Assembly (NCBI RefSeq): GCF_013113715.1
Contig: NZ_CP053344.1
Location: forward strand, 4,092,001 to 4,156,000
Length of the DNA: 64,000 bases
Direction of reading: 5' to 3'
DNA from: Herbiconiux sp. SALV-R1
Lineage (GTDB): Bacteria > Actinomycetota > Actinomycetes > Actinomycetales > Microbacteriaceae
Shown here: positions 11,786 to 50,344 of the stretch, one piece after another
Numbering within the stretch: position 1 is the stretch's first letter
How the letters are laid out: every line of letters starts with the position of its first letter
Position numbers and translations under genes: made by a program
Notes under the pieces: model-generated
Told to the model about the DNA's origin: nothing
The model's input: only the letters and a program-made list of their open reading frames with translations
The model's database searches: none

Positions 11786-12796
11786 TCAGCTGAGCGGCTT
11801 CGACTCGCGCAGGATGCCGGCCAGCTCGGTCATGTGCTGCGCCTGGGAGTGGTAGTCGAGAGCCGCGCCGACCCAGCCGTCGTGCACCTGGCCGGCCGCG
11901 ATGGCCGGGTGGGAGGCGAAGGTGGGCTGCTGCAGCAGCTCGGCCTCCTGGAAGCCCTCGTTGTTCACCAGCAGCACGTCGCCGGTCATCATCTGGCCCG
12001 CGTTCTCCCAGCTGTAGATGTCCCAGTAGTAGTAGCCGTCGGGGTTGAGGTTCGTGAAGGTCACGCCCAGCTCGCTGTAGAGCTCGGTCTCCGGCTCGTC
12101 CTGCGGCTTGGTGACGTAGACGCCGTCGGCGTCGGCGTACATCTGGGTGACCTCGACGTCGCTCTCTGCGGCCGCGGCGGTGAGCTCGGCCGAGGCGGCG
12201 TCGAACTCCTCCTTCGCCGCGGCGATGGTGGCGGGGTCGGCACCGAGGTCTTCGGCGAGCCCGGCCAGCTCCTCAATCACGTCGAGACCCTTGCCGCCCA
12301 CCTCGATCGCCACGACGGGGGCGATCTTCTCGAGCTGCTCCTGCTGCTCGACGTCAGCGAAGGCGTAGTACGGGCCGTCGGTGTTGAGGGTGCCCTCGCG
12401 GTCGGTGGGGTAGATGCCGGTGACGATGAGGTCGGGGGCGGCCTCGGCGAGTGCCTCGAGGTCGATCTCGCCGTAGCTGTTGCCCACGATGGCGGCGTCG
12501 GAGATGTCGTACTCGTCGAAGCGGGTGTCGGAGGCCACGTCGAAGCGGCCGAACAGGGCCACCGGGTCGATGCCGTAGCTCAGGAGGCCGAGGGCGTAGT
12601 CGGTGTAGCTGGCGATGCGCTCGGGCGTGTGGTCGAGGGTGACCGTGGTGCCGGTGGCGTCGGTGTAGCTCCACTCGCCCTCGCCGGCTGCCGAGGTGTC
12701 GCTCGAGGCGGAGGATGCGCATCCTGCCAGCGTGGCGAGTGCCACAGCGGGGGCGATGAACAGAACGGATCGTCGGAGTGCGGCTGATGTTTTCAC
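11786..12796 (-). CDS. Iron-siderophore ABC transporter substrate-binding lipoprotein
   Basis: A 336-residue type III periplasmic-binding lipoprotein (FecB/FepB/BtuF-like). It starts at GTG 12796 and has the lipobox LAGC near residue 26. The core shows TVTLDHTPERIASYTDYALGLLSYGIDP and DLIVTGIYPTDRE, typical of ferric-siderophore binders. It lies directly downstream of the ATPase gene of the same importer, but a DtxR box fills the 25-base gap, so it has its own iron-controlled promoter. No ribosome site precedes the GTG; the -10 TAACCT inside the box ends seven bases before it, which suggests a leaderless message. Confidence 0.93.
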   Translation of the reverse strand: MKTSAALRRSVLFIAPAVALATLAGCASSASSDTSAAGEGEWSYTDATGTTVTLDHTPERIASYTDYALGLLSYGIDPVALFGRFDVASDTRFDEYDISDAAIVGNSYGEIDLEALAEAAPDLIVTGIYPTDREGTLNTDGPYYAFADVEQQEQLEKIAPVVAIEVGGKGLDVIEELAGLAEDLGADPATIAAAKEEFDAASAELTAAAAESDVEVTQMYADADGVYVTKPQDEPETELYSELGVTFTNLNPDGYYYWDIYSWENAGQMMTGDVLLVNNEGFQEAELLQQPTFASHPAIAAGQVHDGWVGAALDYHSQAQHMTELAGILRESKPLS

Positions 12797-12801
12797 GGAA
12801 C

Positions 12802-12820
12802 TTAGGTTAGCCGATCCTAA
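12802..12820 (-). promoter_or_regulatory. DtxR/IdeR iron box before the siderophore-binding protein gene
   Basis: The 19-base palindrome TTAGGTTAGCCGATCCTAA (plus strand) closely matches the DtxR consensus TTAGGTTAGGCTAACCTAA. On the minus strand it contains a -10 sequence TAACCT positioned for the GTG at 12796, so Fe(II)-loaded repressor would block the polymerase directly. Confidence 0.88.
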
Positions 12821-31961: not shown

Positions 31962-33149
31962 ATGAAGAAACACCCCGCCTTCCGCACCCGCCCGGCGCTC
32001 GCCGTCGGCAGCGCCGTCACGGTCGCCGCCCTCGCCGTGCTGCTCGGCGGATGCTCGTCGACCAACGCCGGCGGCACCGCCTCCACCGGCTCGGCCGCCG
32101 ACATCGCCGTCGGCAAGACCGGCACCATGAGCGAGTTCGCCGACATCTCGAGCATCTGCCCCGACGAGGGCGAGATCACCGTGGGCGTCGTCGACGGCTA
32201 CGGCACCAACTCGTGGTCGAAGACCGTGCTCGCCGAGATCGAGGCCGAGGCCGCTAACTGCCCCGCCATCAAGGGAGTCGAGTTCGCCGCCGGCCGCGGC
32301 GACCTGCAGGCCACCACCGCCGCCATCACGAGCATGGCGGCCAAGGGCACCGACATCGTGCTGGTGATTCCGGATGCAGGACCGGGCGAAGCCCACCTCT
32401 CCGCCCTGCGGAGCGCGGTGCAGACCGGATCGACCGTCGTCGCGTTCGCCTCCGACCCCGAGGGCACCGCCGGCACCGACTACCTCGACTACACCGACTG
32501 GTCGCCGGAGTTCAGCGGCCGCACCTGGGCGCAGTGGGTCGTCGACCAGCTCGGCGACGCGGGCGGCAACGTCGTCTTCCTCGGTGGCCCCGCCGGCAGC
32601 GCGGTGTCGTCGCAGGAGCTCGAGGGCGTGAAGGCCGTGCTCGACGAGAACCCGCAGGTGAAGCTGCTCACCGCAGACCCCGTCACCACCAACTGGGACC
32701 CGGCTCAGGCCCAGCAGGCGATGAGCGGTCTGCTCTCGCAGTACCCGCAGATCGACGCCGTCATCTCCGACTACGGGGCGTCGACCGACGGCGTCATCCG
32801 CGCCTACGAGGCAGCCGGCATCACCCTCCCCATCATCGCCACGACCGACCAGAACAGCCTGAGCTGCGGGTTCGAGGCGCTGAAGGCCTCGAACCCGTCG
32901 TACGAGCTGGCCACCGTGTCGTCGCGCACCTGGGTGGGCCGCGTCGCGCTCCGCAAGGCGCTCGCCTCCTTCTCGGGCGTCTCCGACACGGAGCCCTCGA
33001 TCTACGACCTCTCGCTGGCCGAGGACTCGACCGGTAAGACCGAGGGCGCCAAGACGCCCTCCGAGGTCTGCTCCGAAGGCGCTCCCTCCGATGGTTCCCC
33101 CTCGTCGCTGCTCACGCCCGACGAGGTCGCCGCGGCCTTCGCCAACTGA
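31962..33149 (+). CDS. Ribose/nucleoside-type ABC transporter substrate-binding lipoprotein
   Basis: A 395-residue type I periplasmic-binding protein (Peripla_BP_4). The signal ends in the lipobox LLGGC near residue 30. The fold is visible in DEGEITVGVVDGYGTNSWSK, AAKGTDIVLVIPDAG, GNVVFLGGPAGSAVSSQELEG and AVISDYGASTDGVIRAYEAAG. Two Cys (SICPDEG and SLSCGFEA) could form a disulphide. It lies between the permease and ATPase-permease fusion genes of the same system and should define the ligand. Confidence 0.92.
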   Translation: MKKHPAFRTRPALAVGSAVTVAALAVLLGGCSSTNAGGTASTGSAADIAVGKTGTMSEFADISSICPDEGEITVGVVDGYGTNSWSKTVLAEIEAEAANCPAIKGVEFAAGRGDLQATTAAITSMAAKGTDIVLVIPDAGPGEAHLSALRSAVQTGSTVVAFASDPEGTAGTDYLDYTDWSPEFSGRTWAQWVVDQLGDAGGNVVFLGGPAGSAVSSQELEGVKAVLDENPQVKLLTADPVTTNWDPAQAQQAMSGLLSQYPQIDAVISDYGASTDGVIRAYEAAGITLPIIATTDQNSLSCGFEALKASNPSYELATVSSRTWVGRVALRKALASFSGVSDTEPSIYDLSLAEDSTGKTEGAKTPSEVCSEGAPSDGSPSSLLTPDEVAAAFAN

Positions 33150-37172: not shown

Positions 37173-38435
37173 TCACACCGGCGACCCCGCCCGCCGCGAC
37201 CAGGGGAGGGCCCTCATCATGCTGAGCACCGCAATGATGCCGAGGCCGAGGGCGGATGCGGCGGCCAGCAACGGGAGAACGAGCGGCGACAGAGTGCCGG
37301 AGCCCTCGGGCACGAGTCCGACCGGTTGCGGCAGCAGCGTCTGGGGTGCGTTCAGCGCCACGAGCTCGCTGGCCAGGGCGTCGGCGGGCACCACGGCCGG
37401 CGCTCGGACGACGGGGTTGTCGGGCGCCGCCCCTCCGCCGGCCGAGCCTCCCGCGCTCGCGGGTGGGGTGACGGGCGCGGAGGCGTCGTAGCTCACCGTG
37501 AGGGGGCTCGCGGGTTTCGCGGCGTCGCGCACGCCGCCGGTGGTCACCCAGTAGCCCTGCTGGCCGGTGAGGCGGTGGAAGTCGACGAACGACTGCGGGA
37601 ACGACCCCCAGTGGGCCTCGTTCGACGCGGAGCGGGCGACCTGTCCGCTGCCGGAGCTCGACACCCCGAGATACCGCGGCGTGACGGTGAACCCGCCGCC
37701 CTTCGCGACCTCGGCGCCACTGATGTCGGCGAGGGTGACCTTCACCGGGTCGAGGGCCTGCCACTTCGTCATGTCGTCCATCGAGGTTCCGTAGCCGCTG
37801 GCGAGCCCCGTCAGCTCGCCGTCGCCCGAGGCGTCGAGCGAGAGCTCGGGGTCGGTGACGCTCCAGTAGGTCATGCCCCCGTAGAACACCACAGTGAACG
37901 AACCGGTCCAGCGGATGCGCACCCCGTCACCGTCTGACGAGCCGGTTCCGCCCTGCATCACGACCTGATTGCCGCTGGTGCTCGACGTCGACGACACCGA
38001 CACCGCCGCGCCCTGCGGGTCGAGGCAGCGGGCACCCCAGGTGGCGTCGGCCCATTGCCCGTCGGCGGTGGGTTTCTCGATGTGCACCGACCCGTCGTGC
38101 GAGCGGTAGAGGCCGTCGCCCTCCTGCCACACGCGGGAGCCGCCCGCGTCGCCCGCTCGACCCGCGCTGAGGAAGTTGCATCCGCCCGCGAAGGCACCGG
38201 CGCCCGACTCGGCGTTGAGCCCCCAGCGCAGCTCCGCGTTGGTGATGCTGCCCCCCGTGCTCGGCGTCGGGGTGCGCTCGGGCACGGTGACGATGATGTC
38301 GTCGGCGTCGCGCGCGGCTGAAGCCGAGGCCGAGGCCGAAGCCGCGGATGCGGTGCCCAGACCCAGCACCGTCCCCAGCCCCAGTGCGAGGGCGACAAGC
38401 GCGGCCGCGTGCCGCCCGCGGCGAACCGCGGTCAT
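37173..38435 (-). CDS. HtaA-domain haem-binding surface protein with C-terminal membrane anchor
   Basis: A 420-residue exported protein, last gene of the haem operon. ATG 38435 overlaps the preceding stop as ATGA (38432-38435). After a signal peptide and an Ala/Ser stretch comes one HtaA domain (about 65-310): ELRWGLNAESGAGAFAGGCN, YYGGMTYWSVTDPEL-like motifs and SGYGTSMDDMTKW. Conserved Tyr and His of this domain bind haem in corynebacterial HtaA. A Pro/Ala-rich linker precedes a C-terminal helix (VLPLLAAASALGLGIIAVLSM) and a basic tail (RRAGSPV), so it is membrane-tethered. Confidence 0.9.
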   Translation of the reverse strand: MTAVRRGRHAAALVALALGLGTVLGLGTASAASASASASAARDADDIIVTVPERTPTPSTGGSITNAELRWGLNAESGAGAFAGGCNFLSAGRAGDAGGSRVWQEGDGLYRSHDGSVHIEKPTADGQWADATWGARCLDPQGAAVSVSSTSSTSGNQVVMQGGTGSSDGDGVRIRWTGSFTVVFYGGMTYWSVTDPELSLDASGDGELTGLASGYGTSMDDMTKWQALDPVKVTLADISGAEVAKGGGFTVTPRYLGVSSSGSGQVARSASNEAHWGSFPQSFVDFHRLTGQQGYWVTTGGVRDAAKPASPLTVSYDASAPVTPPASAGGSAGGGAAPDNPVVRAPAVVPADALASELVALNAPQTLLPQPVGLVPEGSGTLSPLVLPLLAAASALGLGIIAVLSMMRALPWSRRAGSPV

Positions 38436-39592
38436 CGCAGCGCCGCTTCGTCGACGGCCTGAGGTGTGGGCGTCTCCGATGCGAGCTCCGGCTGCTGCGG
38501 CACGACCGCGCCCCCGTCCACGCCCGGGCGCGCGGCTCGCCGCGCGCGGCGGCGCGCCAGGGCGCGGGCGATCGCGGTGATGACGCTCGCCACCACGAGC
38601 ACGAGCGCCAGCGCGATGCACCCGAGCATGAGCACGATGGCCCACACGGGTGCGGCGGGCGCGGCGCTGCTCGCCTCGGCCGAGGCGGCGACCCCGCCCG
38701 TGACGGTGACCTCCGCCTCGGCCACGCCGCCCGACCCGGCCCCGCGCAGGGTGACGAGGTGCGTGCCGTCACGGATGTCGCGGGGAACGGGAAGCGCGGC
38801 GGCGATCTCGCCCTGGGTTCCGGCGGTGAGCGGGCCCACCGCCGTCAGCCCCCCGTCGAGGGAGGCGACGACCTGCTCACCGGGTGTGAAGCCCTGCCCC
38901 GTGAAGACGATCGACGATCCTGCGGAGACCGTCGCCGCATCCACACCGACGCGAACCGCTCCTGCCGCGCCGGGCGCGGAGGGCGCGGCCTCCGCTGCCG
39001 ATGCGGCGGCATCCGAGGCGAACGACACCGGCGTGAAGGTCTCGTTGTTGGCGTTCTTCACGCCGTGGGCGCCGATGGTGATGATGCCGCAGGTCACCGT
39101 CCGGCAGTCCACCTCCGTGATGTTCCCGTCCCGGTCCTGGCTCTCGAAGGTGGCGCCGGGGGTGACCATCGACACCGTCCACGAACCGTCTGCGGCGATC
39201 GTGCCGTTGGCGGAGCTCTCCGTCTGGCTGCCGGGGAAGGCGAGGAAACGCTGGAAGCCGTTGTTGTCGGCCGACTCGGCGTCGGGAACGTAGCGGTAAT
39301 CTTCGCCGACGACGCCGCCGGCGCTCGGCCGCCAGGTGCCGCTCGCGGCGTCGTCGACCCAGCCGAAGAGCACGTAGATGCCTCCGAAGCCGTTCTGGAT
39401 GGACTGGAAGCCGGTGCCGCTCACCGTGACGTCGGTCGCGTAGTCCGGCGACACCGAGGCGCTCCCGTCGGGGCCCGACACGGAGACGCTGCCGGCAGCC
39501 CAGGCGGGAGTCGCGGTCGCGAGAAGCGCCACCGCGGAGACGGAGAGGGCGACGGCGACGGCGGTCGCGGTGAGGTGGACGCGACGTTTCAT
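38432..39592 (-). CDS. Exported membrane-anchored protein of the haem operon
   Basis: A 386-residue protein starting at ATG 39592, which overlaps the hmuV stop. It has a signal peptide (cleavage near AWAAG), then a domain (34-200) whose core VTVSGTGFQSIQNGFGGIYV and WRPSAGG parallels the middle of the HtaA-WxL protein at 42759. A second Ig-like module (about 205-300) has IVFTGQGFTPGEQVVASLDG. The C terminus has a membrane helix (WAIVLMLGCIALALVLVVAS) and basic, Pro-rich tail. No HtaA motif is present. By position it should pass haem between surface and HmuT or scaffold the others. Confidence 0.85.
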   Translation of the reverse strand: MKRRVHLTATAVAVALSVSAVALLATATPAWAAGSVSVSGPDGSASVSPDYATDVTVSGTGFQSIQNGFGGIYVLFGWVDDAASGTWRPSAGGVVGEDYRYVPDAESADNNGFQRFLAFPGSQTESSANGTIAADGSWTVSMVTPGATFESQDRDGNITEVDCRTVTCGIITIGAHGVKNANNETFTPVSFASDAAASAAEAAPSAPGAAGAVRVGVDAATVSAGSSIVFTGQGFTPGEQVVASLDGGLTAVGPLTAGTQGEIAAALPVPRDIRDGTHLVTLRGAGSGGVAEAEVTVTGGVAASAEASSAAPAAPVWAIVLMLGCIALALVLVVASVITAIARALARRRARRAARPGVDGGAVVPQQPELASETPTPQAVDEAALR

Positions 39593-40395
39593 GCTGGTTC
39601 TTCTCCGATGTCCGAGTGGTCGGTGGCGGATGGTTCGGCGATCACCCAGAGGGAGTCCCCGACCCCGGGCGCCACGTGGATGGGGTGCCGGTACACGCGT
39701 GTCAGCAGCGCGGAGGTGAGCACGGCACGGGGAGCCCCGACGGCGGCGAGACGGCCCTGTTCGAGCAGCGCGATGCGATCGGCGTAGGCGGCGGCGAGGT
39801 TGAGGTCGTGCAGCACGACGACTGCCGCCCCACCTCGTCGCACACGGTCTCGGGTGCGTGCGAGCACCCGGTGCTGGTGACGGATGTCGAGGCTCGCGGT
39901 GGGTTCGTCGAGGAGGGCGATGCGGCACTGCTGGGCGTACGACCGCGCGAACGCGGTGCGCGCCCGCTCCCCGCCGGAGAGGGCTGTCACCGCGCGCGTC
40001 GCGAAGCTCTCGACCTCCCCGGCTTCCATCGCGGCGGCGACGATCTCGTCGTCGAGCGCGGCTTCGGGCCGATGTCGCCACGGTGCCCGCCCCATCCGCA
40101 CCACCTCTCCGACCGCGAACGGGAAGGAGACCTCGTTGCTCTGCGTGAGCACCGAGCGCCGCCGCGCCCGCTCGGCCACGGGGTGGCTCTCGAGCGACGC
40201 CCCGTCGAGCTCGACCATCCCGCTGGTGGGCGCACGATCCCCGGCGAGCACCGACAGCAGGGTGGACTTGCCCGCACCGTTCGGCCCGACAAGCACCAGC
40301 AGCTCCCCGGCGCGCACCTCCACATCGACGCCGTCGAGGATGCGGCGCTCGCCGATGTCGACGGTGACCTCCCGTGCGCGCAGCACCGCGGTCAT
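39589..40395 (-). CDS. hmuV: Haem ABC transporter ATP-binding protein HmuV
   Basis: A 268-residue ATPase of the haemin/siderophore importer class. Walker A GPNGAGKST is at 37-45, the signature is LSGGERARTAFARS and Walker B is IALLDEPTASLD. SVLTQSNEVSFPFAVGEVV and MGRAPWRH are typical of HmuV rather than FecE. ATG 40395 overlaps the permease stop as ATGA (40392-40395). Confidence 0.93.
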   Translation of the reverse strand: MTAVLRAREVTVDIGERRILDGVDVEVRAGELLVLVGPNGAGKSTLLSVLAGDRAPTSGMVELDGASLESHPVAERARRRSVLTQSNEVSFPFAVGEVVRMGRAPWRHRPEAALDDEIVAAAMEAGEVESFATRAVTALSGGERARTAFARSYAQQCRIALLDEPTASLDIRHQHRVLARTRDRVRRGGAAVVVLHDLNLAAAYADRIALLEQGRLAAVGAPRAVLTSALLTRVYRHPIHVAPGVGDSLWVIAEPSATDHSDIGEEPA

Positions 40396-41519
40396 CCCCA
40401 GCCTCCCGAGCGTCGACGGGTGCGTCTGAGCAGCCAGAAGAAGAACGGACCTCCGATGAGGGCGGTGAGCATCCCGATCGGCAGCTCGCTGCCGGGCACC
40501 GCGGTGCGCGCGACCAGGTCGGCGGCCAGGAGCAGCACCGACCCGCCCAGAGCGCTGGCGGGCAGCAGCAGGCGATGCCCGGGGCCGAGCACCATGCGCA
40601 TGAGGTGGGGCACGACGAGACCGACGAAGCCGATGATGCCGCAGAACGCGACAGCCGCGCAGGTGAGCAGCGCGATGACGACGATCGCGACGACGCGGAG
40701 TCGCTCCACGCGCACTCCGAGGTGCTCGGCCTGCCGCTCGCCGAGAGCTAGGAGGTCGAGGTCGGCAGACATCAGAAGGCACGCCGCGATGCCCACCGCG
40801 GTCAGCGGGGCGACGATCGCGAGGTCGCCCCAGCGGGTTCCGTTGAGCGAGCCGAGCTGCCAGAACACGATCTGCTCCCGCTCCTGGGTCGACCCGAGGT
40901 AGGTGAACAGGGCGATGGCCGCTCCTCCGACGGCGTTTACCGCGATGCCGGTGAGCACCAGCGTGACGACCTCGGTGCGGCCGTCGGCGCGTGCGGCGGC
41001 GTACACGACGGCGATCGCCGCGAGGCCCCCGAGGAACGCCAGAGCCGGCAGGGTCAGGGGGCCGAGGAACCCGAGGCCGAAGACGATGGAGGCGGATGCT
41101 CCGACCGCGGCGCCCGACGAGATGCCGATGACACCCGGCTCGGCGAGCGGATTGCGGAACACCCCCTGCATCACGACCCCGGCCGACGCGAGCGCCGCTC
41201 CCACGAGCACCGCCATCAGGAGCCGCGGAGCACGAATGAGCCACAGCGTCGCCTCGGCGTTGACGTGCGACATCGGTGCCCCCTCGGGGAGGGAGAGGAT
41301 GCCGAGCCCCACCGACTGCACGGCTCCGTTCCACGCTCGCGACGCAGCGCCCACGACTTCGGCGGGTGGGATGTGCAGTTGTCCGCTGCCCGCCGAGACG
41401 ATCATCAGCGCGAGCAGTGCGATGCCGAGGGCCACGAACATGAGTGGTCCCCGCGTCACCCTCCGCTGGGACGGCGCGGCGAGCCGGGTGAGGGGCCTCT
41501 CCTCGGTCGCCAGGCTCAT
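40392..41519 (-). CDS. hmuU: Haem ABC transporter permease HmuU
   Basis: A 375-residue FecCD-family permease with about ten helices. It shows RAPRLLMAVLVGAALASAGV, RNPLAEPGVIGISSGAAVGA, CGIIGFVGLVVPHLMRMVLG with the VPH coupling loop, and GPFFFWLLRR. ATG 41519 overlaps the hmuT stop as ATGA (41516-41519). It would form a homodimeric channel for haem, energised by HmuV. Confidence 0.93.
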   Translation of the reverse strand: MSLATEERPLTRLAAPSQRRVTRGPLMFVALGIALLALMIVSAGSGQLHIPPAEVVGAASRAWNGAVQSVGLGILSLPEGAPMSHVNAEATLWLIRAPRLLMAVLVGAALASAGVVMQGVFRNPLAEPGVIGISSGAAVGASASIVFGLGFLGPLTLPALAFLGGLAAIAVVYAAARADGRTEVVTLVLTGIAVNAVGGAAIALFTYLGSTQEREQIVFWQLGSLNGTRWGDLAIVAPLTAVGIAACLLMSADLDLLALGERQAEHLGVRVERLRVVAIVVIALLTCAAVAFCGIIGFVGLVVPHLMRMVLGPGHRLLLPASALGGSVLLLAADLVARTAVPGSELPIGMLTALIGGPFFFWLLRRTRRRSGGWG

Positions 41520-42607
41520 CCGGCTGCCTCGGGGGCGTAGATCGCCACCGCGAGTGCGTCGAGCACGTCGGCGGACGCGGGCCCGAAGCTGAGGACGGTG
41601 GTGTCGGACATGTCGACGATGCGGTGGTTCCGCCCCGCATCCGTCTGGGCGATGGCGGGGAGGTGCTCGACCAGCCCGTCGACCCCGCCGACCGATTCGA
41701 GTCCCTTCGTCATCATGATCAGCAGGTCGGGGTTGGCGTCGACGAGGGCCTCGTCGGTGACGGGCCGCATGCCCTTCCAGCCGATCTCGCCGGCGACGTC
41801 GATGCCGCCGAGCGCGCGGATCAGGCTGTCGGCCCCCGACTCCTCGCCGAACAGGTAGTACACGCCCGACTGGCCGCGCACGTAGAGGAACATCATCCGC
41901 AGCCTCTGCACCGGATCGGCCGGTGCCACCGCGGCGATCTGCGCGATCTTCTCCGCGACCGCAGCGTCGCTCCGCGCGGCGAGCGCGTCGGCGCGCTCGG
42001 GCACGCCGAGGGCCGTGCCCACCTGGTCGATGAGCGACCCGACCGATTCGAGCGAGCGGTGCGAGTCGACGACCACGACGGGGATGCCGGCGTCGCGCAG
42101 CTGCAGGATCGTGTCCCACGGGCCCAGACTGGTGTCGGTGAGGATGACCGTGGGCGCCGCCTCGAGGATGGCCTCGGCGTTCAGATCGTGGCCGTTCTCG
42201 GTGACGACGGGGAGGTCGGCAGCCTCCGGGAAGCCGCTCGACGTGTCGCGAGCGACGACGGATGCGCCCAGACCGAGCTCGAACACGATGCGCGACAGGG
42301 AACCGTAGATGTCGAGGGTCAGGATGCGGCTCGCGTCGGTGACCGTGACCGAAGTTCCCTGCGCATCCGTCACCGTCACCGGGAGCACCTGAGCTCCGTC
42401 GACGACGGGGTCGATGGCGGCCGTCGCCGCGACCGCCGTGGAGGGGCCTTCCCACGCGAGCGGATCGCTGAGCGGAGTGACCTCCGACAGCGGCGGCGTG
42501 GCAGGGGCGCCGGACGTGCCCGAGGGCGCTCCGGCGCCGCAGGCGGTCAGGCCGAATGTCACCGCGAGCACGGTGACGGCAGCGACGAAGTGGCGTGCGC
42601 GCATCAT
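41516..42607 (-). CDS. hmuT: Haem-binding lipoprotein HmuT
   Basis: A 363-residue type III binding protein, first gene of the operon. I start it at ATG 42607 because GGAGG lies seven bases upstream; a TTG at 42622 is in frame but would overlap that site. The lipobox is LTAC near residue 23. The core has TVTDASRILTLDIYGSLSRI, LPVVTENGHDLNAEAILEAA, and LYVRGQSGVYYLFGEESGAD. The linkage to HtaA genes and DtxR boxes supports haem as ligand, as in Corynebacterium hmuTUV. Confidence 0.92.
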   Translation of the reverse strand: MMRARHFVAAVTVLAVTFGLTACGAGAPSGTSGAPATPPLSEVTPLSDPLAWEGPSTAVAATAAIDPVVDGAQVLPVTVTDAQGTSVTVTDASRILTLDIYGSLSRIVFELGLGASVVARDTSSGFPEAADLPVVTENGHDLNAEAILEAAPTVILTDTSLGPWDTILQLRDAGIPVVVVDSHRSLESVGSLIDQVGTALGVPERADALAARSDAAVAEKIAQIAAVAPADPVQRLRMMFLYVRGQSGVYYLFGEESGADSLIRALGGIDVAGEIGWKGMRPVTDEALVDANPDLLIMMTKGLESVGGVDGLVEHLPAIAQTDAGRNHRIVDMSDTTVLSFGPASADVLDALAVAIYAPEAAG

Positions 42608-42623
42608 GAGAAAAGCCTCCAAT

Positions 42624-42642
42624 TTAGGTAAGCCTATCCTTA
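42624..42642 (-). promoter_or_regulatory. DtxR/IdeR iron box of the hmuTUV operon
   Basis: TTAGGTAAGCCTATCCTTA (plus strand) matches the DtxR palindrome. On the minus strand it contains TAGGCT (42636-42631), the favoured -10 box of this genome, 23 bases before ATG 42607. Repressor binding would hide the promoter. Confidence 0.87.
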
Positions 42643-42669
42643 ACGTTGCGCTGGAACACAGCCTTCTGC

Positions 42670-42688
42670 TTAGGTAAGGCTAACCTGC
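42670..42688 (+). promoter_or_regulatory. DtxR/IdeR iron box of the HtaA-WxL gene
   Basis: TTAGGTAAGGCTAACCTGC matches the consensus at nearly every position. TAACCT (42681-42686) is a candidate -10 for the plus-strand HtaA gene. With the box at 42624 it makes the divergent haem genes jointly iron-regulated. Confidence 0.88.
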
Positions 42689-42758
42689 CTTTGCGCTCAC
42701 CCGGGCGCAGCTGACGCGCGCGTCGGTCTGCCAGAGAAGGCTGAGAAGGGATGTACCC

Positions 42759-44573
42759 GTGGACTCCTCCTCCACACCACGCCGGCGATTCAGACGCACC
42801 GCCCTCGCGGGGCTGACCGTCGCCGCTCTCACGCTGGGCGGCGTGCTCGTGGCCGCACCCGCCTACGCCGCCGAGTCGACGATCGACGGCGCGGTCTTCC
42901 GCTGGGGCCTGAACGCCGAGTCGAACGCCGCCGCGTTCGCGCCCGGAACGGTGAACCTCCTCTCCGCCGGAGTGGTCACCGCGACGTCGTCGGCCGACAG
43001 GGTCACGCAGAGCAACTGGAAGCAGAGCGAGGGCAACACCACGATCCTCAAGCGCCAGTCGGACGGCAGCTACGCCGACGCCACCTTCGCGGGGCTCCGC
43101 ACCGACGCCGCGGGCACCACGATCACGACCGGCAACGGCCTGAACTCAGGTCATGTCGCCCAGATCTCCGCGGGCACCGGCACCGTCGACGTCGAGGCGA
43201 ACACCGCGGTCATCCAGTGGACGGGCACCTTCACCTCCGCCTACTACTCGGGGATGACACGCTCCTGGATCACCGACCCCAAGCTCACCGTCGACTCCGA
43301 CGGCACGGGCACCATCACCGCCACGCTCGGCGGCTACGGCACCTCGATGGACGACCCCGACAAGTTCGAGACCCTCGCCCCCGCCGAGAACGTGGTCGTC
43401 GCCACCCTCACCGGGGTCGACGTGACGCCGACCGGCTTCACCGTCACCCCTGACTACCTCGGGCGCACCGTCACCACGCCGGCGGATGGCGTCGCCCAGG
43501 TGACCTCGGGGGCCAACGCGGGCGCGTTCCCGCAATCGTTCGTCGACTTCCAGAGCAAGACCGGCCAGGGTTCCTACTGGTACTCCTCGGGTGGAGCGGC
43601 CGACGCGCGCAAGCCCGCCAGCGCGGTCTCCGTCGCCTACACCACGGCCCCGACCACGTTGGCGCCGACGGTGACCGTGTCGAAGACCACCGGTCTGACG
43701 CAGGGCGAGACCGTCACCGTGTCGGGCAGCGGGTTCCTGCCGTCGGGAACGGCGACGAACGGTACCCGCCCGCCGCTGGCCGGGCAGTTCAGCGGCACCT
43801 ACGTCGTCTTCGGCAAGTTCGCCGAGGCGTGGAAGCCGTCGACCGGGGCCGCATCCTCCACGCGGTCGGTCATCGCCCAGAAGTGGGCGCTGCCCGCCGC
43901 GAGCATGTCGACGGTCGGCGGCGCGAACGCCGGGGCCGTCGAGCTCAAGGCCGACGGCACCTTCTCGGTCGACCTCACCCTCACCACCACCGAGGCGCAG
44001 AACATCGCGGCGGGGAACTTCGGTATCTACACCTACCCCGGTAGCGGTGCGAGCTACGCCCCCTTCGAGACCTACACGCCGCTGGCCTTCTCCACCGCAT
44101 CCGACGTCATCGTGGAGGTGCCCGACTGGGTCGACAACCCGACCGGGTCGTTCGGCTGGGCCTTCGAGGGCACCTCGCCCGCCAACCTCGGCACCGCGGT
44201 GCAAGACGGCGGCAACTTCGTCGCGACCGGCTCGCTCACCAACATCATCGTGACCGACACCCGCGCCGGCGGAACCTCGCCGTTCACGTGGAGCATCTCG
44301 GGCCAGGCCGACGACTTCGCCTCCACCGGGGGTGGCTCCTTCTCGGCCGGCTACCTCGGCTGGACGCCGAAAGTCGTCGCCGGAGCCGTCACCGGCGGCG
44401 CCGAGGTCGCCTCGACCCGACTGGGCGGCGCCGGTCTCGGCTCCTCCCGCGTGCTCGCCTCCTCCACCTCCGCGGTGAGCGCGACGGTGGGAGCCGACCT
44501 GTCGCTCGTCATCCCCGGCACCACCACCGCGGGTGACTACACCAGCAAGCTCACCATCACCGCACTGCAGTAA
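42759..44573 (+). CDS. HtaA haem-binding protein with C-terminal WxL-like domain
   Basis: A 604-residue secreted protein starting at GTG 42759 with AAGGG upstream and a signal peptide cut near AYAAE. Residues 40-295 form an HtaA domain (GAVFRWGLNAESNAAAF, YYSGMTRSWITDPKLTVD, YGTSMDDPDKF). Residues 300-445 repeat the unit seen in the 38432 protein (VTVSGSGFLPSGT, TYVVFGKFAEAWKPSTG). Residues 448-604 look WxL-like: IIVTDTRAGGTSPFTWSISG, YLGWTPKVV and the closing AGDYTSKLTITALQ. WxL domains bind peptidoglycan non-covalently. There is no membrane anchor or sortase signal, so the WxL-like part probably holds it at the wall. The WxL call is by motif reading and less sure than HtaA. Confidence 0.88.
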   Translation: MDSSSTPRRRFRRTALAGLTVAALTLGGVLVAAPAYAAESTIDGAVFRWGLNAESNAAAFAPGTVNLLSAGVVTATSSADRVTQSNWKQSEGNTTILKRQSDGSYADATFAGLRTDAAGTTITTGNGLNSGHVAQISAGTGTVDVEANTAVIQWTGTFTSAYYSGMTRSWITDPKLTVDSDGTGTITATLGGYGTSMDDPDKFETLAPAENVVVATLTGVDVTPTGFTVTPDYLGRTVTTPADGVAQVTSGANAGAFPQSFVDFQSKTGQGSYWYSSGGAADARKPASAVSVAYTTAPTTLAPTVTVSKTTGLTQGETVTVSGSGFLPSGTATNGTRPPLAGQFSGTYVVFGKFAEAWKPSTGAASSTRSVIAQKWALPAASMSTVGGANAGAVELKADGTFSVDLTLTTTEAQNIAAGNFGIYTYPGSGASYAPFETYTPLAFSTASDVIVEVPDWVDNPTGSFGWAFEGTSPANLGTAVQDGGNFVATGSLTNIIVTDTRAGGTSPFTWSISGQADDFASTGGGSFSAGYLGWTPKVVAGAVTGGAEVASTRLGGAGLGSSRVLASSTSAVSATVGADLSLVIPGTTTAGDYTSKLTITALQ

Positions 44574-44650
44574 GACGCCGTGCGTGGGGCCTCGGCGTGA
44601 GCCGGGGCCCCCCTCGCGTCTCGACAAGGTCTCGACCAGAAGGAACACCC

Positions 44651-45679
44651 GTGCCCACCACCCGTCGCACCCCCGTCTTCGCGCTGGCAGCACTCACCGC
44701 GCTGCTGCTCACCACGCTGCTGCTCACCGCCGCCGCGCCGGCGCCCGCGGCCCGGGCGGAGGACGGCGGCGTGGCCTGGACGGTGAAGACCGCCGACAAC
44801 GCCAACGGGGCAGGGCGCGCCAACTTCACCTACGACGTCGAGCCGGGTGCGGTCATCTCCGACACGATGGTCGTGGTCAACACGGGCACCGAGCCGCTCC
44901 CGCTCGCGGTGTACGCCGCCGACGCGTTCACCGCCTCCAGCGGTGAGATCGACGTGCTCGTCGACGGCAGCCCGTCGGTGGGCGCCGGCACGTGGGTGCA
45001 GGTCGACACCGGCAGCCTCGAGTTGTCGCCCGGGCAGTCGGCCGACATCCCTTTCAGCATCAGCGTGCCCGCCGACGCCCGGCCCGGCGATCACTCGGCC
45101 GGCATCGTCACCTCCCTCACCAGCGCCGACGCCTCCGCCTCGCTCTCGGTCGACCGGCGGCTGGGCACCCGCATCAACCTGCGTGTCGCGGGGGAGCTCA
45201 CCCCTGCCGCACAGGTGGGCGAGGTGCAGGCGGAGTACCTCCCGAGCTGGAACCCTTTCGCGCCCGGTACCGTCACCATCCGTTACCGGCTCGCCAACAC
45301 GGGCAACACGCGCCTCACCGGCACCGAGACGGTCACCGCCTCGGGCGCCTTCGGTCTTCTCGACGCCACGACGGCGCCCACGCAGCTCAGCGAGATCATC
45401 CCCGGCTCGGTCGTCGACGTCGTGCGCGAGGTGCCGGTGCTGTCTCTCGGGTGGGTGCACGGATCGACGACGGTGACGCCCGAGGGGGTCGGGCTGGGGG
45501 CCGCGGCGGTCGACGTCGTCGCTGCGGACTTCGAGGTCGTCGCGGTTCCGTGGAGTCTCTACGCCGTCATCGTGCTCATCGCCGGTGTCGCCGTGGCGAG
45601 CATCCTCGTGGTCCGCCGTGTGGTCAGGGCATCAGGAAGCCGAGAAGGCCGTCAGACCCTTCGTGGTCGTCGGCCGTGA
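44651..45679 (+). CDS. DUF916 WxL-interacting protein-like membrane protein
   Basis: A 342-residue exported protein starting at GTG 44651 with AGGAAC upstream. After a signal peptide (cut near AARAED) the WIP peptidoglycan-binding domain (DUF916) spans about 40-160: FTYDVEPGAVISDTMVVVNT, LELSPGQSADIPFSISVPAD, ARPGDHSAGIVTSL. A second beta domain follows (INLRVAGELTPAAQVGEVQA). A membrane helix at about 305-325 (WSLYAVIVLIAGVAVASILV) and a basic tail end it. WIPs bind WxL proteins in Firmicutes. It follows the HtaA-WxL gene by 77 bases on the same strand. Its end overlaps the convergent hydrolase gene by 56 bases. Confidence 0.87.
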   Translation: MPTTRRTPVFALAALTALLLTTLLLTAAAPAPAARAEDGGVAWTVKTADNANGAGRANFTYDVEPGAVISDTMVVVNTGTEPLPLAVYAADAFTASSGEIDVLVDGSPSVGAGTWVQVDTGSLELSPGQSADIPFSISVPADARPGDHSAGIVTSLTSADASASLSVDRRLGTRINLRVAGELTPAAQVGEVQAEYLPSWNPFAPGTVTIRYRLANTGNTRLTGTETVTASGAFGLLDATTAPTQLSEIIPGSVVDVVREVPVLSLGWVHGSTTVTPEGVGLGAAAVDVVAADFEVVAVPWSLYAVIVLIAGVAVASILVVRRVVRASGSREGRQTLRGRRP

Positions 45680-46514: not shown

Positions 46515-46802
46515 GTGGAACGCGAGCGGGAGCTGCAGGAGTCGTTGCGGGAGTTGTCGACACTGCTTCGCGCGGTCGGCGAGATGCCCTGGGCCGACCG
46601 GTGCGCCTGGGCGGCCGATCGCGTCGGTGCCGGTGGAGACCCGGCCGAGGTGAGACGGATGTTCGGCGGAATGGGCAGCCTGAGCGACCTGGTCATCCAC
46701 CCCGTCAACGGCCATGCGGTCGCGGATGATCAGATCGCCCGCGTCAACGAGGCGCTCACCGGATTGCGGGAGCGGGTGTATCTCGCCTCCCAGCCTCGGT
46801 GA
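46515..46802 (+). CDS. Small helical hypothetical protein
   Basis: A 95-residue protein from GTG 46515, divergent from the hydrolase. It reads as helical: ERERELQESLRELSTLLRAV, then DRCAWAADRVGAGGDPAEVRRM and FGGMGSLSDLVIHPVNG. The layout resembles a small DUF6966-type family, but I am not sure. The frame ends in GTGA overlap with an upstream in-frame GTG of the large surface protein. No strong ribosome site is visible. Confidence 0.6.
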   Translation: MERERELQESLRELSTLLRAVGEMPWADRCAWAADRVGAGGDPAEVRRMFGGMGSLSDLVIHPVNGHAVADDQIARVNEALTGLRERVYLASQPR

Positions 46803-46869
46803 TCCGATCGATCCCGAACGGTTCCCGCCAGCCCCAGGACGGGGGCTCACCCCTGCGCGACCGCTCCGT

Positions 46870-46875
46870 TAGGGT
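46870..46875 (+). promoter_or_regulatory. -10 box TAGGGT
   Basis: TAGGGT fits the local TANNNT pattern and lies 34 bases before GTG 46910. This supports a start at 46910 over the upstream GTG at 46799. Confidence 0.45.
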
Positions 46876-46909
46876 GGGGCCACCCCGCGCCCCCGGATTG
46901 GACCGACCC

Positions 46910-49900
46910 GTGCCCCACCCATCCTCCCTCCGCTCCCGCGTGGCGGCAATCGCCGCTGCGGCGGTGGGCATCGCCCTGCTCGGCGTGCCCGCTCTCCCGG
47001 CGCACGCCGAGGTCAGCCCGCCCTGCCCGGCCGTGGAGCGCATCCCGGTAGCTCCCGCCGCTGGCGACAGCACCGCATCCGACACGGCGACGGATGCTGC
47101 GGCAGGCGGGCTCGGCGAAGACGCGGCCGAGTCCATCCTCGGCAGCCTCGCGGGCAAGCTGCTCGACGAGGTGATCGCCGGCGTCGGCGGCGACATCGGC
47201 GGCGACGTGGCCGGGTGGATCATCGGCAGCCTGAGCGCCCCGCCCGACTCCACGCCGACGCCCGTGCAGCAGGAGGAGCTCGACAAGCTCGCGGGGCTCT
47301 CCTCCGACCTGCAGGCCCTGCAGACCCAGGTCGCCGCGCTCAGCACGCAGATCAGCTCGGTGGAGCAGGAGCTGATCAGCGTCACCGAGGCCGCCCAGGC
47401 CTACGGCACCTATCAGCAGCAGGCCACCGCCCTCAGCGACGGGGCGCTCGCGAGCATGGTGACCGACATCCAGAACGTCTGCGAGATAGCCAACGAGCAG
47501 TACAACGCGGCGGTCGCGGCCGGCGAGACGACGGCACTGACCGGCGACCAGACCGCCCAGCTGCAGACCATCGTCACGAACAACTCCGAGTACGTCGACG
47601 CCATGAACGCGGCTCTCGTGGGCGACGGCAACTCGGCCGGACTCATCACCGTCTACTCGCGCGTGCTCTGGCTCGCCCAGGGCACCGCCGACACGATGCC
47701 GTCGGGCACCCTCATCCCGTCGGCGCTGCTCACCGAGATGCAGACGATCGTGCAGTTCTACGCCAGCGTGGCCACCCTGCACCTCGAGGCCTTCATCGAG
47801 GCGGTGCACGCCCTGCCGGGCTACGCCGACAGCGAGGCCATCTACGAGTACTACGTGAACTCGTACGTGCCCTACATCCAGCAGTGGTCGTACGAGGCCG
47901 GCCTCAACCTGCCGAGCCTCGACCCCGCACTCATCGCCGACGTGAGCGCCGGCGCCTCCCCGAACCCGGGCACGGCCACGACGCCCGGCACCATCCGCGT
48001 CTGGACGGCCGTGCCCGCCCAGATCGCCGGGCAATCGCAGAGCCGCTACTGCGTGCAGCAGGGCATGTGCGTGGCCCCCGACTACTACCCCGCCACCACC
48101 GGCGGCGACCCGATCGCCGTGAGCGTGGTGCCTGCCGTGGCGCCGCTGTCGTCGTACCTCGACGCCCCGCAGTACGGACTGACCGGTTGGCGAGTGCCGA
48201 CCATCGCCGACTGGCAATCGCTCACCGTGGCCCGCGACTCCATCATCCCCGCCGTGCCGGGAGAGCCGACGCCCCCGCCGCCGTCACCGGCGAACGGGGT
48301 GGCGGCGTGGGCCGGCATCGAGGGGCTCGCCGTGCTCGAGACGGCCGACGTGCCGTACCCCACCGGCAGCATCGCGTCGATCCCGCCGCTCGTGGTCGAC
48401 GATCCCGAGATGCAGGCGCTCATCTTCAACGGCTCGACCTTCACCGGTGACGCCGCCGGCATCGCAGCCTACGACCAGGGGTACACCTTGGGCGGCCAGC
48501 TCGCGCTCGTGCAAGACGTGGCGGTGGCGCCGCCGGTGCTGCCCGCCTACCCGTCGTCGGACGTGTCGAACGGGCGCGGTGCAGCACCGGGTGCGGTGGA
48601 TGCGGCGGCAGCGTCGGGAACGTCGGGAACGGATGCTGCGGTCCACGACGCGGCCACAGCATCCGAGCCCTCCGCCCCCCGCACGACGGATGGCACGACG
48701 GATGCGGCGGTCGGCTCCACCTGGAACGCCACCACCTATGACACCCCGGCCGCCTGCACTGACCAGAGCAACCAGTACGTGCAGCCCGCCGGCGCCAACG
48801 CGGTGCAGGTGACGGTGGCGGCCGGCGCGGGCGGCGTCGCCTCGGGCGGCGGCCAGTTCTCGGCGAACGTGCCCGGAGGCCTCGGTGCTCAGCTCACGGC
48901 CACCATCCCGGTGGCGGCGGGTACGACCCTCTACATCGGCGTCGGAGGTCGCGGGGGCGACTGGAACAGCCTGCCGAACGGCGAAGGAGCCCCGGGCGGC
49001 GTCGGCAACGGAGGGCCCGGTGGCAACGCCAACCAGGACAATCAGGGCAACACCCTCGGCTACACGGGCGCCGGCGGCGGCGGGCTCTCGCAGATCACGC
49101 TCGACGCCGGATGCTCCCTGCCGCTCGCCGTGGCCGGCGGCGGGGGCGGCGCGGGAATGGGCATAGTCCCGACCTACGTGCCCTTCGGAGGCAACGGGTG
49201 CATGTCGACGGGGTGCACCGGTTCCATCGTGGGGACCAGCAACCAGGAGGGCACCCTCACCTCGGGTGGCAGCGAGGGCGGCAACTATCAGGCAGGTCCC
49301 CAGTCGGGTCTCGGCGCGCCGCCGCTCGGCACCTCCGGGGGGCAGGGTGGTGCCGTGGGAGTGCAGCTCGGGGGCTTCGGTGAGCCCTCCTACACCGGGG
49401 GCGCCGGTGGCGGTGGCGGTGGCGGCTTCACGGGCGGGGGCGGGGGTGGCGGCACCACCAGCTCCACCGCGCAGAACGGTGTCAACGGCCAGAACGTGAC
49501 GTCGGGGCCGGGCTCGGGCGGGTCGAGCTACCTCGCCGTCGGCTCGGTCGACACCGATCTCGCTCTGAACACCGCCGCAGACGGGCAGGGGTTCGTCACC
49601 ATCACGCCGGTCGTCGTGCCCGAGTACAGCTTCGCCGTCTACAGTCCTGGCGCGCGACAGGTGAGTGCGGTGGTCTCCGAGGGTTCGGGTGGTTCGGGTG
49701 ACTCCGGCGGCCTCGGCCTCGGCGCTGCGGCGTCGACTCCTCAGGATCTCGGCGGCGAGGGCGTCGGCTGGGCGCTCCCCGCCGTCGACGCCTTCCCCGG
49801 CCCCGTCGACGTCGTCGACCCCGCCGCGAGTCTCTGCCTCGCCGCGGGCGGTCGCACGGAATCGACCTGCGCCGACCAGAGCTGGACCATCACCCCCAGC

Positions 49901-50344
49901 GGCGACGCCACACCCTTCCCGGGCTTCCCGCTCTACGACGTCACGGGGAGCGACGGCACCGCGCTCGCACCGGCCTTCGCCACGTGGGACCCGCAGGCGA
50001 CCGTGGTGCTGCAGCCCTCGACGCTGTGGACCCCGGATGCGGCACTCACCGACCCCGATCCGGGCCCCGGCCCGGGTCCCGGCCCTGGTCCCGGGCCTGG
50101 TCCCGACCCGCAGCCGACGCCCACCGTCACCCCCGCACCGCCCGCGGGTGACGGCGGCAGCGACTCGGCGAGCCCGGGCGGCGCCGGCGGCGCTCTCGCG
50201 GCGACGGGCCTCTTGGCCCTCCCCCTCGGTCTGGCCGGCTTCGCCGCGACGGCGCTCGCGGCCCTCGGCGCCCTCCTCCTGATCGCCCGCCGCCGCTCCG
50301 CCGCCCCCGCCGCCCCCGCCAGGGCCCCGCACAAGACCGATTAG
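46910..50344 (+). CDS. LAATG-anchored glycine-rich surface protein
   Basis: An 1144-residue secreted protein. GTG 46910 gives a normal signal peptide (RSRVAAIAAAAVGIALLGVP, cut after AHA). A coiled-coil at about 117-170 (LSSDLQALQTQVAALSTQIS) is followed by a helical region. Near 418 is a DUF1566/Lcl-like motif (YGLTGWRVPTIADWQSL). Residues 630-900 are a glycine-rich domain with runs of GGGG (VAGGGGGAGMG, GGAGGGGGGGFTGGG). A Gly-Pro repeat (GPGPGPGPGPGPGPD) precedes the sorting signal LAATG near 1096, a hydrophobic helix and IARRR. LAxTG fits actinobacterial class E sortases, so it is probably wall-linked. The function is unknown. Confidence 0.85.
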   Translation: MPHPSSLRSRVAAIAAAAVGIALLGVPALPAHAEVSPPCPAVERIPVAPAAGDSTASDTATDAAAGGLGEDAAESILGSLAGKLLDEVIAGVGGDIGGDVAGWIIGSLSAPPDSTPTPVQQEELDKLAGLSSDLQALQTQVAALSTQISSVEQELISVTEAAQAYGTYQQQATALSDGALASMVTDIQNVCEIANEQYNAAVAAGETTALTGDQTAQLQTIVTNNSEYVDAMNAALVGDGNSAGLITVYSRVLWLAQGTADTMPSGTLIPSALLTEMQTIVQFYASVATLHLEAFIEAVHALPGYADSEAIYEYYVNSYVPYIQQWSYEAGLNLPSLDPALIADVSAGASPNPGTATTPGTIRVWTAVPAQIAGQSQSRYCVQQGMCVAPDYYPATTGGDPIAVSVVPAVAPLSSYLDAPQYGLTGWRVPTIADWQSLTVARDSIIPAVPGEPTPPPPSPANGVAAWAGIEGLAVLETADVPYPTGSIASIPPLVVDDPEMQALIFNGSTFTGDAAGIAAYDQGYTLGGQLALVQDVAVAPPVLPAYPSSDVSNGRGAAPGAVDAAAASGTSGTDAAVHDAATASEPSAPRTTDGTTDAAVGSTWNATTYDTPAACTDQSNQYVQPAGANAVQVTVAAGAGGVASGGGQFSANVPGGLGAQLTATIPVAAGTTLYIGVGGRGGDWNSLPNGEGAPGGVGNGGPGGNANQDNQGNTLGYTGAGGGGLSQITLDAGCSLPLAVAGGGGGAGMGIVPTYVPFGGNGCMSTGCTGSIVGTSNQEGTLTSGGSEGGNYQAGPQSGLGAPPLGTSGGQGGAVGVQLGGFGEPSYTGGAGGGGGGGFTGGGGGGGTTSSTAQNGVNGQNVTSGPGSGGSSYLAVGSVDTDLALNTAADGQGFVTITPVVVPEYSFAVYSPGARQVSAVVSEGSGGSGDSGGLGLGAAASTPQDLGGEGVGWALPAVDAFPGPVDVVDPAASLCLAAGGRTESTCADQSWTITPSGDATPFPGFPLYDVTGSDGTALAPAFATWDPQATVVLQPSTLWTPDAALTDPDPGPGPGPGPGPGPGPDPQPTPTVTPAPPAGDGGSDSASPGGAGGALAATGLLALPLGLAGFAATALAALGALLLIARRRSAAPAAPARAPHKTD

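Follow-up and report, generated by a model that had tools for sequence, protein, structure and literature searches.

The window analysed here is a 64,000-nucleotide stretch of the genome of the actinobacterium Herbiconiux sp. SALV-R1 (contig NZ_CP053344.1, positions 4,092,001 to 4,156,000; genome size 4.5 Mb). At positions 37173..45679, it holds what is probably a haem-acquisition locus repressed by iron, with a WxL-type anchor displaying one of its receptors. The locus comprises hmuTUV, a membrane-anchored HtaA-like protein, a surface protein made of HtaA-like, immunoglobulin (Ig)-like and WxL-like domains (HtaA-WxL), and a DUF916 (WxLIP) protein. The nearest named relatives of this locus belong to Microbacterium. 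Its features are listed below, gene starts being our own choice.

37173..38435, minus strand: Hta1 (HtaA-like protein 1), encoded at the end of the hmu operon; a hydrophobic N-terminal stretch is followed by an HtaA-like domain and a C-terminal helix (by hydropathy)
37485-38246, minus strand: HtaA-like domain of Hta1
38432..39592, minus strand: IgTM, Ig-like with a C-terminal helix, akin to the middle domain of HtaA-WxL and retained in the locus across genera; no Pfam match
39589..40395, minus strand: hmuV, haem ABC transporter ATPase (NCBIfam PRK13548, 282.6 bits, cut-off 261)
40392..41519, minus strand: hmuU, FecCD permease (PF01032, E 1.4e-89)
41516..42607, minus strand: hmuT, haem-binding protein whose lipoprotein-type signal was recognised by eye (best PDB match 5az3, E 5.5e-68)
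42624..42642, plus strand: DtxR-like box 1, 3/19 mismatches, just upstream of hmuT
42670..42688, minus strand: DtxR-like box 2, 3/19 mismatches, upstream of the HtaA-WxL gene
42759..44573, plus strand: HtaA-like/Ig/WxL-like surface protein (HtaA-WxL), 604 amino acids, with an N-terminal hydrophobic stretch
42879..43643, plus strand: HtaA-like (HbpA-like) domain of HtaA-WxL
43659..44099, plus strand: Ig-like middle domain of HtaA-WxL, related to IgTM
44142..44567, plus strand: C-terminal WxL-like domain (VTDTR...W-S-I; no second W-x-L motif)
44651..45679, plus strand: DUF916/WxLIP protein, with a hydrophobic stretch at its N-terminus, two Ig-like domains and a C-terminal helix

The genes hmuT, hmuU, hmuV, IgTM and Hta1 follow one another in that order on the minus strand and, with the chosen starts, overlap by four bases at each of the four junctions, so they are read as one operon. 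The HtaA-WxL and DUF916 genes diverge from it, the latter starting 77 bases past the HtaA-WxL stop codon. This layout, with two DtxR boxes between the divergent units, and the gene positions agree with those of an earlier sequence-only reading of the window.

The WxL-like domain and its DUF916 partner

The last 150 residues of HtaA-WxL define a family (35 rows) in which the Asp, Arg and Trp of V-T-D-T-R...W-x-I/V/L are invariant. The first W-x-L motif is thus present as W-x-I/V/L, with Trp in 35/35 rows and Leu in four of them. An Asp stands eight residues before this Trp, as in PMC9772566, in 18/35 rows, and eleven residues before it in the window protein and nine others. The domain is called WxL-like because the second W-x-L motif of the Firmicutes proteins is found in none of the 35 rows. 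Single-sequence Pfam scans gave no PF13731 (WxL) match in the window proteins or the genome; seven of the 35 rows, the window's own not among them, match it at E<=0.01. Profile-profile comparison (hhalign) with seven Pfam-recognised actinobacterial WxL domains gives E 8.5e-24, and still 1.5e-16 with five when L122 and L123, which seem closely related to the query family, are left out. The best PDB sequence match is the WxL chain 9i25_A, a weak one (E 0.12). This chain is not among the fold matches listed for the HtaA-WxL model, which, the model being long, is not evidence against the assignment. The profile-profile score of the stricter comparison, the C-terminal position and the first motif bear out the earlier suggestion of a WxL-like end to the 42759 protein. 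The window holds one WxL gene, and a genome search with the whole HtaA-WxL protein as query found no second.

The protein encoded downstream matches PF06030 (DUF916) with E 2.1e-5 and 25.0 bits as a whole protein (cut-off 27.3), and with 27.4 bits in the genome scan; 34 of 36 rows of its family match at E<=0.01. Its predicted fold matches that of a WxLIP, in agreement with its earlier recognition as a DUF916-type protein, and Pfam recognises no DUF3324 as its second domain. The best PDB sequence matches of the DUF916 family and, weakly, of the WxL-like family are chains that partner each other in 9i25, a solved complex. The profile searches suggested by the sequence-only reading confirm DUF916 and, for WxL, are negative with the window's own protein and positive with part of the family rows; the same holds for HtaA (see below). 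Chance resemblance as the source of the HtaA, WxL or DUF916 readings is ruled out by the profile-profile comparisons and predicted folds.

The two proteins have complementary anchors. According to a simple hydropathy rule applied to stop-to-stop frames, HtaA-WxL open reading frames (ORFs) cut by a contig edge being excluded, a C-terminal hydrophobic helix is predicted in 0/40 HtaA-WxL ORFs versus 38/38 DUF916 proteins. HtaA-like ORFs devoid of a WxL domain possess it in 29/36 cases in the same loci and in 40/65 in other loci. Within the window, Hta1, IgTM and the DUF916 protein carry the helix, while HtaA-WxL has neither the helix nor an LPXTG-like motif at its end. This distribution suggests that the WxL-like domain stands in for the membrane tail. 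To note, the genome has two sortase matches.

The association is retained well beyond Herbiconiux. A named collection was assembled from loci chosen by two peptide patterns, both within the HtaA-like part, and then ranked against the whole protein, a procedure that favours fusions; 80 of 119 relatives were kept, yielding 74 loci. The HtaA-WxL fusion is present in 41 of these, and DUF916 lies directly downstream in 37 of the 41. In three exceptions (L166, L173 and L218) the contig ends less than 450 bases from the WxL match, and the fourth, L211, is real. Among the 33 loci without the fusion, DUF916 occurs once (L195), where a separate WxL gene lies between (Fisher p 2.4e-15, not corrected for relatedness). 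A general pairing of DUF916 with HtaA genes is thereby ruled out: at the level of gene neighbourhoods, it travels with the WxL domain and not with HtaA as such. The neighbourhood survey that the sequence-only reading had offered as its own refutation thus leaves the pairing standing. In L211 (L211:9764-11533, Pseudoclavibacter helvolus), the HtaA-WxL frame continues into unrelated sequence and no DUF916 or hmu genes are found in 21 kb; it is possibly a rearranged copy.

The pair is retained in four gene arrangements, over several actinobacterial families:

divergent: Microbacterium
pair last in a single hmu operon: Cellulomonas, Arthrobacter, Luteimicrobium, Tessaracoccus and metagenome-assembled genomes (MAGs) of Bifidobacteriaceae
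pair first in the hmu operon: Pseudoclavibacter
convergent: Labedella and genomes G033, G165, G108 and G118

The Ig-like middle domain is found in most Microbacterium fusions, in those of Luteimicrobium, in the Bifidobacteriaceae MAGs and in G292, and is absent from the other fusions. At least two of hmuT, hmuU and hmuV are present in 34/41 fusion loci and in 27/33 of the others; six of the seven fusion stretches lacking them are shorter than 12.5 kb.

A sample of 199 genomes of the family, in which the best 6 and best 10 candidates per genome were scored, so that misses are possible, gave ten HtaA-WxL genes, all followed directly by DUF916 on the same strand. WxL-like domains on other proteins are also paired with DUF916 in 35 of 46 cases. 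Both phosphatase-like large proteins that were scanned (L071 and L077) match purple-acid-phosphatase and calcineurin-like models, that of L081 is a glycerophosphodiesterase, and that of L072 has no Pfam match; the large proteins of L073, L076 and L079 read like L071. In a tree of 73 WxL-like domains, the HtaA-like label needs six changes, the deep forks being weak. In the family, the pair may serve as a general display cassette. Comparison gives good support to the reading that a predicted WxL-type dock displays an HtaA-like receptor in a haem locus with iron boxes.

Iron control, haem import and the HtaA-like domain

HmuT is of the CgHmuT type and keeps the His and Tyr-x-Arg that PMC4926363 describes as haem ligands, GH.LNAEAI and FLY.RG being conserved relative to 5az3; HmuU is a FecCD permease, and the haem ATPase HmuV scores over its NCBIfam cut-off. 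The genome also encodes a haem oxygenase.

Boxes were scored against a 19-base sequence that we take to be the DtxR consensus. Sites with at most 3/19 mismatches occur at a mean of 0.00 in 100 shuffles of the window. With up to six mismatches allowed, a DtxR-like box is found upstream of hmuT in 29 of 35 fusion loci holding this gene, versus 28/700 random stretches; for the HtaA-WxL gene, the corresponding figures are 24/39 and 11/230. DtxR would, from the position of these boxes, repress both units. A scan of 42550-42800 for sigma-70-type promoters and terminators found nothing. The only other window site with at most three mismatches (12802-12820, two mismatches) is directly upstream of a minus-strand gene, 11786-12796, which in our reading encodes a siderophore-type binding protein and is flanked on the far side by ABC transporter genes; an iron box would be expected at such a place.

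The HtaA motifs noticed earlier in the proteins at 37173 and 42759 withstand closer comparison, although single-sequence Pfam scans of the window proteins and of the genome detect no PF04213 (HtaA). Twelve of 32 HtaA-like family rows, the window's own not among them, match PF04213 at E<=0.01 (best 7.5e-8), hhalign relates the family to canonical HtaA with E 4e-8, and the predicted fold of HtaA-WxL matches HtaA/HbpA. By sequence and by fold, the nearest solved relative of the domain is the haemoglobin receptor HbpA.

Counting gap-free from a shared Trp, the axial, iron-binding Tyr of the HtaA conserved-region (CR) domain is present in 0/32 HtaA-like rows versus 30/30 canonical ones, and so is the preceding propionate Ser of the S-x3-Y motif in helix 1 (0/32 versus 30/30). 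Haem binding by the HtaA-like domains can therefore not be assumed, and the domain is filed as HtaA/HbpA-like rather than as a canonical CR domain. A Tyr is found two residues after the axial place in 14/32 rows, a Phe occupying this position in the window's HtaA-WxL. Tyr163 and Tyr273 are invariant and Met197 is a Met in 30/32 rows; hhalign aligns Tyr163 with the canonical helper residue. In the window's HtaA-WxL, neither Cys of a pair present in 28/32 HtaA-like domains is kept (residues 65 and 114, region 42951-43100), as if a disulfide had been lost as a unit.

Canonical domains on the same kind of anchor do exist. Among 197 genomes sampled across the class, three ORFs, from two other actinobacterial families, carry Pfam HtaA (PF04213, E 5e-42 to 8e-50) together with a weak Pfam WxL match below the cut-off:

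L143:9083-11764
L144:4077-7972
L145:6420-10334

DUF916 follows in every case, after a second WxL gene in L144 and L145, and hmuV or hmuTUV is nearby in each. The axial Tyr is conserved in their HtaA domains (rows L099, L101 and L108 of alignment A5), so that WxL-type anchoring also occurs with a CR domain that has its haem ligand. A fourth ORF (G342) is left out of the count, as its WxL match covers 46 early model positions only and no DUF916 or WxL-like hit is found in its 19-kb stretch.

How the parts may work together can be proposed as follows. The membrane-fixed WxLIP would capture the WxL-like β-sandwich and complete it with a hairpin, so that the HtaA-like domain would be retained in the wall and catch haem or a haem-carrying protein there. 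Haem would then pass to the membrane-held Hta1/IgTM, on to HmuT and through HmuUV, to be opened by the haem oxygenase. We infer the contact between the WxL-like domain and the WxLIP, the ligand and the flow of haem. The anchoring half of this scheme, already put forward in the sequence-only reading, is well supported by comparison, through linkage, complementary anchors and the WxLIP fold. Its other half, a hand-over from the wall HtaA to the membrane HtaA and to HmuT, is not supported as stated there, given the missing axial Tyr and the kinship with HbpA. In L163, L212 and L213, one stop-to-stop frame holds both an HtaA-like domain and an IgTM-type Ig domain, a hint that IgTM and Hta1 may act together; such frames can be artefacts, as in L168, where hmuV and an HtaA-like domain share one.

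It is a real, if lesser, possibility that the WxL-WxLIP pair displays the HtaA-like protein as an HbpA-like dock for a haem-carrying protein, its HtaA-like domain binding no haem itself and the haem released there being caught by HmuT or others. Against it, Tyr163 falls on the canonical helper residue, Tyr273 and Met197 are conserved, the Tyr near the axial place in 14 rows makes another mode of haem binding conceivable, and the canonical fusions keep the axial residue itself. That the HtaA-like protein binds another ligand, such as another tetrapyrrole or a glycan, and is merely co-located with haem import appears unlikely. The display module is uninformative on haem, since the same pair carries phosphatase-like enzymes and a phosphodiesterase, which favours such a view; the frequency of hmu genes around the fusions and in the other loci, the haem ligands kept by HmuT and the HtaA/HbpA fold all speak against it.

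It is more improbable still that DUF916 owes its place beside HtaA-WxL to descent and has a role of its own, for example in wall sensing, instead of being the anchor. Common descent alone can give linkage, and 11 of 46 other WxL-like domains have no adjoining DUF916 match. Conversely, DUF916 is kept through the four arrangements, is paired with most other WxL-like proteins and is absent from 32 of 33 non-fusion loci; moreover, the anchors are complementary and the DUF916 fold is that of a known WxL partner. An iron-repressed locus with a WxL-anchored haem receptor is the reading that we prefer.

Elsewhere in the window, 46799-50344 encodes a glycine-rich protein of 1181 residues that reads, by eye, as secreted with a C-terminal helix and has no Pfam match above cut-off. 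An ARAGORN call of tRNA-SeC at 32836-32921 (minus strand) lies inside a substrate-binding-protein gene and is probably false. An Rfam scan of the window gave no match.

Relation to known systems

The locus resembles the Corynebacterium htaC/htaA-hmuTUV-htaB locus (genes as in PMC13001254) by its DtxR control, hmuTUV, HtaA-fold surface proteins and a membrane-anchored copy. It differs in that the window receptor has a WxL-like domain and a WxLIP in place of a C-terminal helix, lacks the axial Tyr and has an IgTM partner. For HbpA of C. diphtheriae (PDB 9bch, 9bcj), the available part of the account mentions no WxL domain or WxLIP.

With the WxL clusters of Firmicutes, which combine small WxL, large WxL and WxLIP proteins (PMC10599100, PMC9772566), it shares a large surface protein whose C-terminal WxL-type domain is encoded beside a WxLIP, the latter having in both cases two Ig-like domains and a transmembrane helix. 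The host is, however, an actinobacterium, the second W-x-L motif is absent and the protein carried is HtaA-like and encoded next to a haem importer. PMC10599100 defines such clusters by two WxL genes; the window has one, L144 and L145 have two.

Sortase-anchored Isd/NEAT receptors are held by a covalent LPXTG anchor and relay haem from the wall to an ABC importer. The wall-displayed relay to an ABC importer would be common to both systems, whereas the window's HtaA-WxL ends without helix or sorting motif.

HtaA and WxL were not found together in the open literature searched, and a search combining any two of WxL domain, Actinobacteria and heme returned no WxL domain among the matches listed. 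As far as the available text of these papers goes, WxL with heme uptake leads to a Carnobacterium genome paper and WxL with DUF916 and Actinobacteria to a honeybee-gut paper; PMC12537917 places Microbacterium DUF916 and metallophosphatases near Ang-2 genes, with no haem there, and PMC10924467 belongs to the HtaA-domain literature. Within the literature searched, WxL-type display of haem-uptake proteins is hence a new combination of two known kinds, in line with the sequence-only reading, which knew of no description of it.

A broader view can be put forward tentatively. Besides sortase and membrane anchors, Gram-positive bacteria might possess a third way of displaying haem receptors, a non-covalent, donor-strand-like WxL:WxLIP dock that would hold an HbpA-like haemoprotein receptor in the wall. 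Actinobacteria would have reused it as a general cassette for phosphatase-like proteins, a phosphodiesterase and haem receptors, and the HtaA-like family would bind haem or a haemoprotein without an iron-tyrosyl link. The finding joins two systems that have been studied separately and gives the WxLIP a testable cargo beyond Firmicutes. A WxL domain and WxLIP replacing a membrane tail give clear predictions, and suggest how actinobacterial cells may retain haem-uptake proteins that have no anchor themselves.

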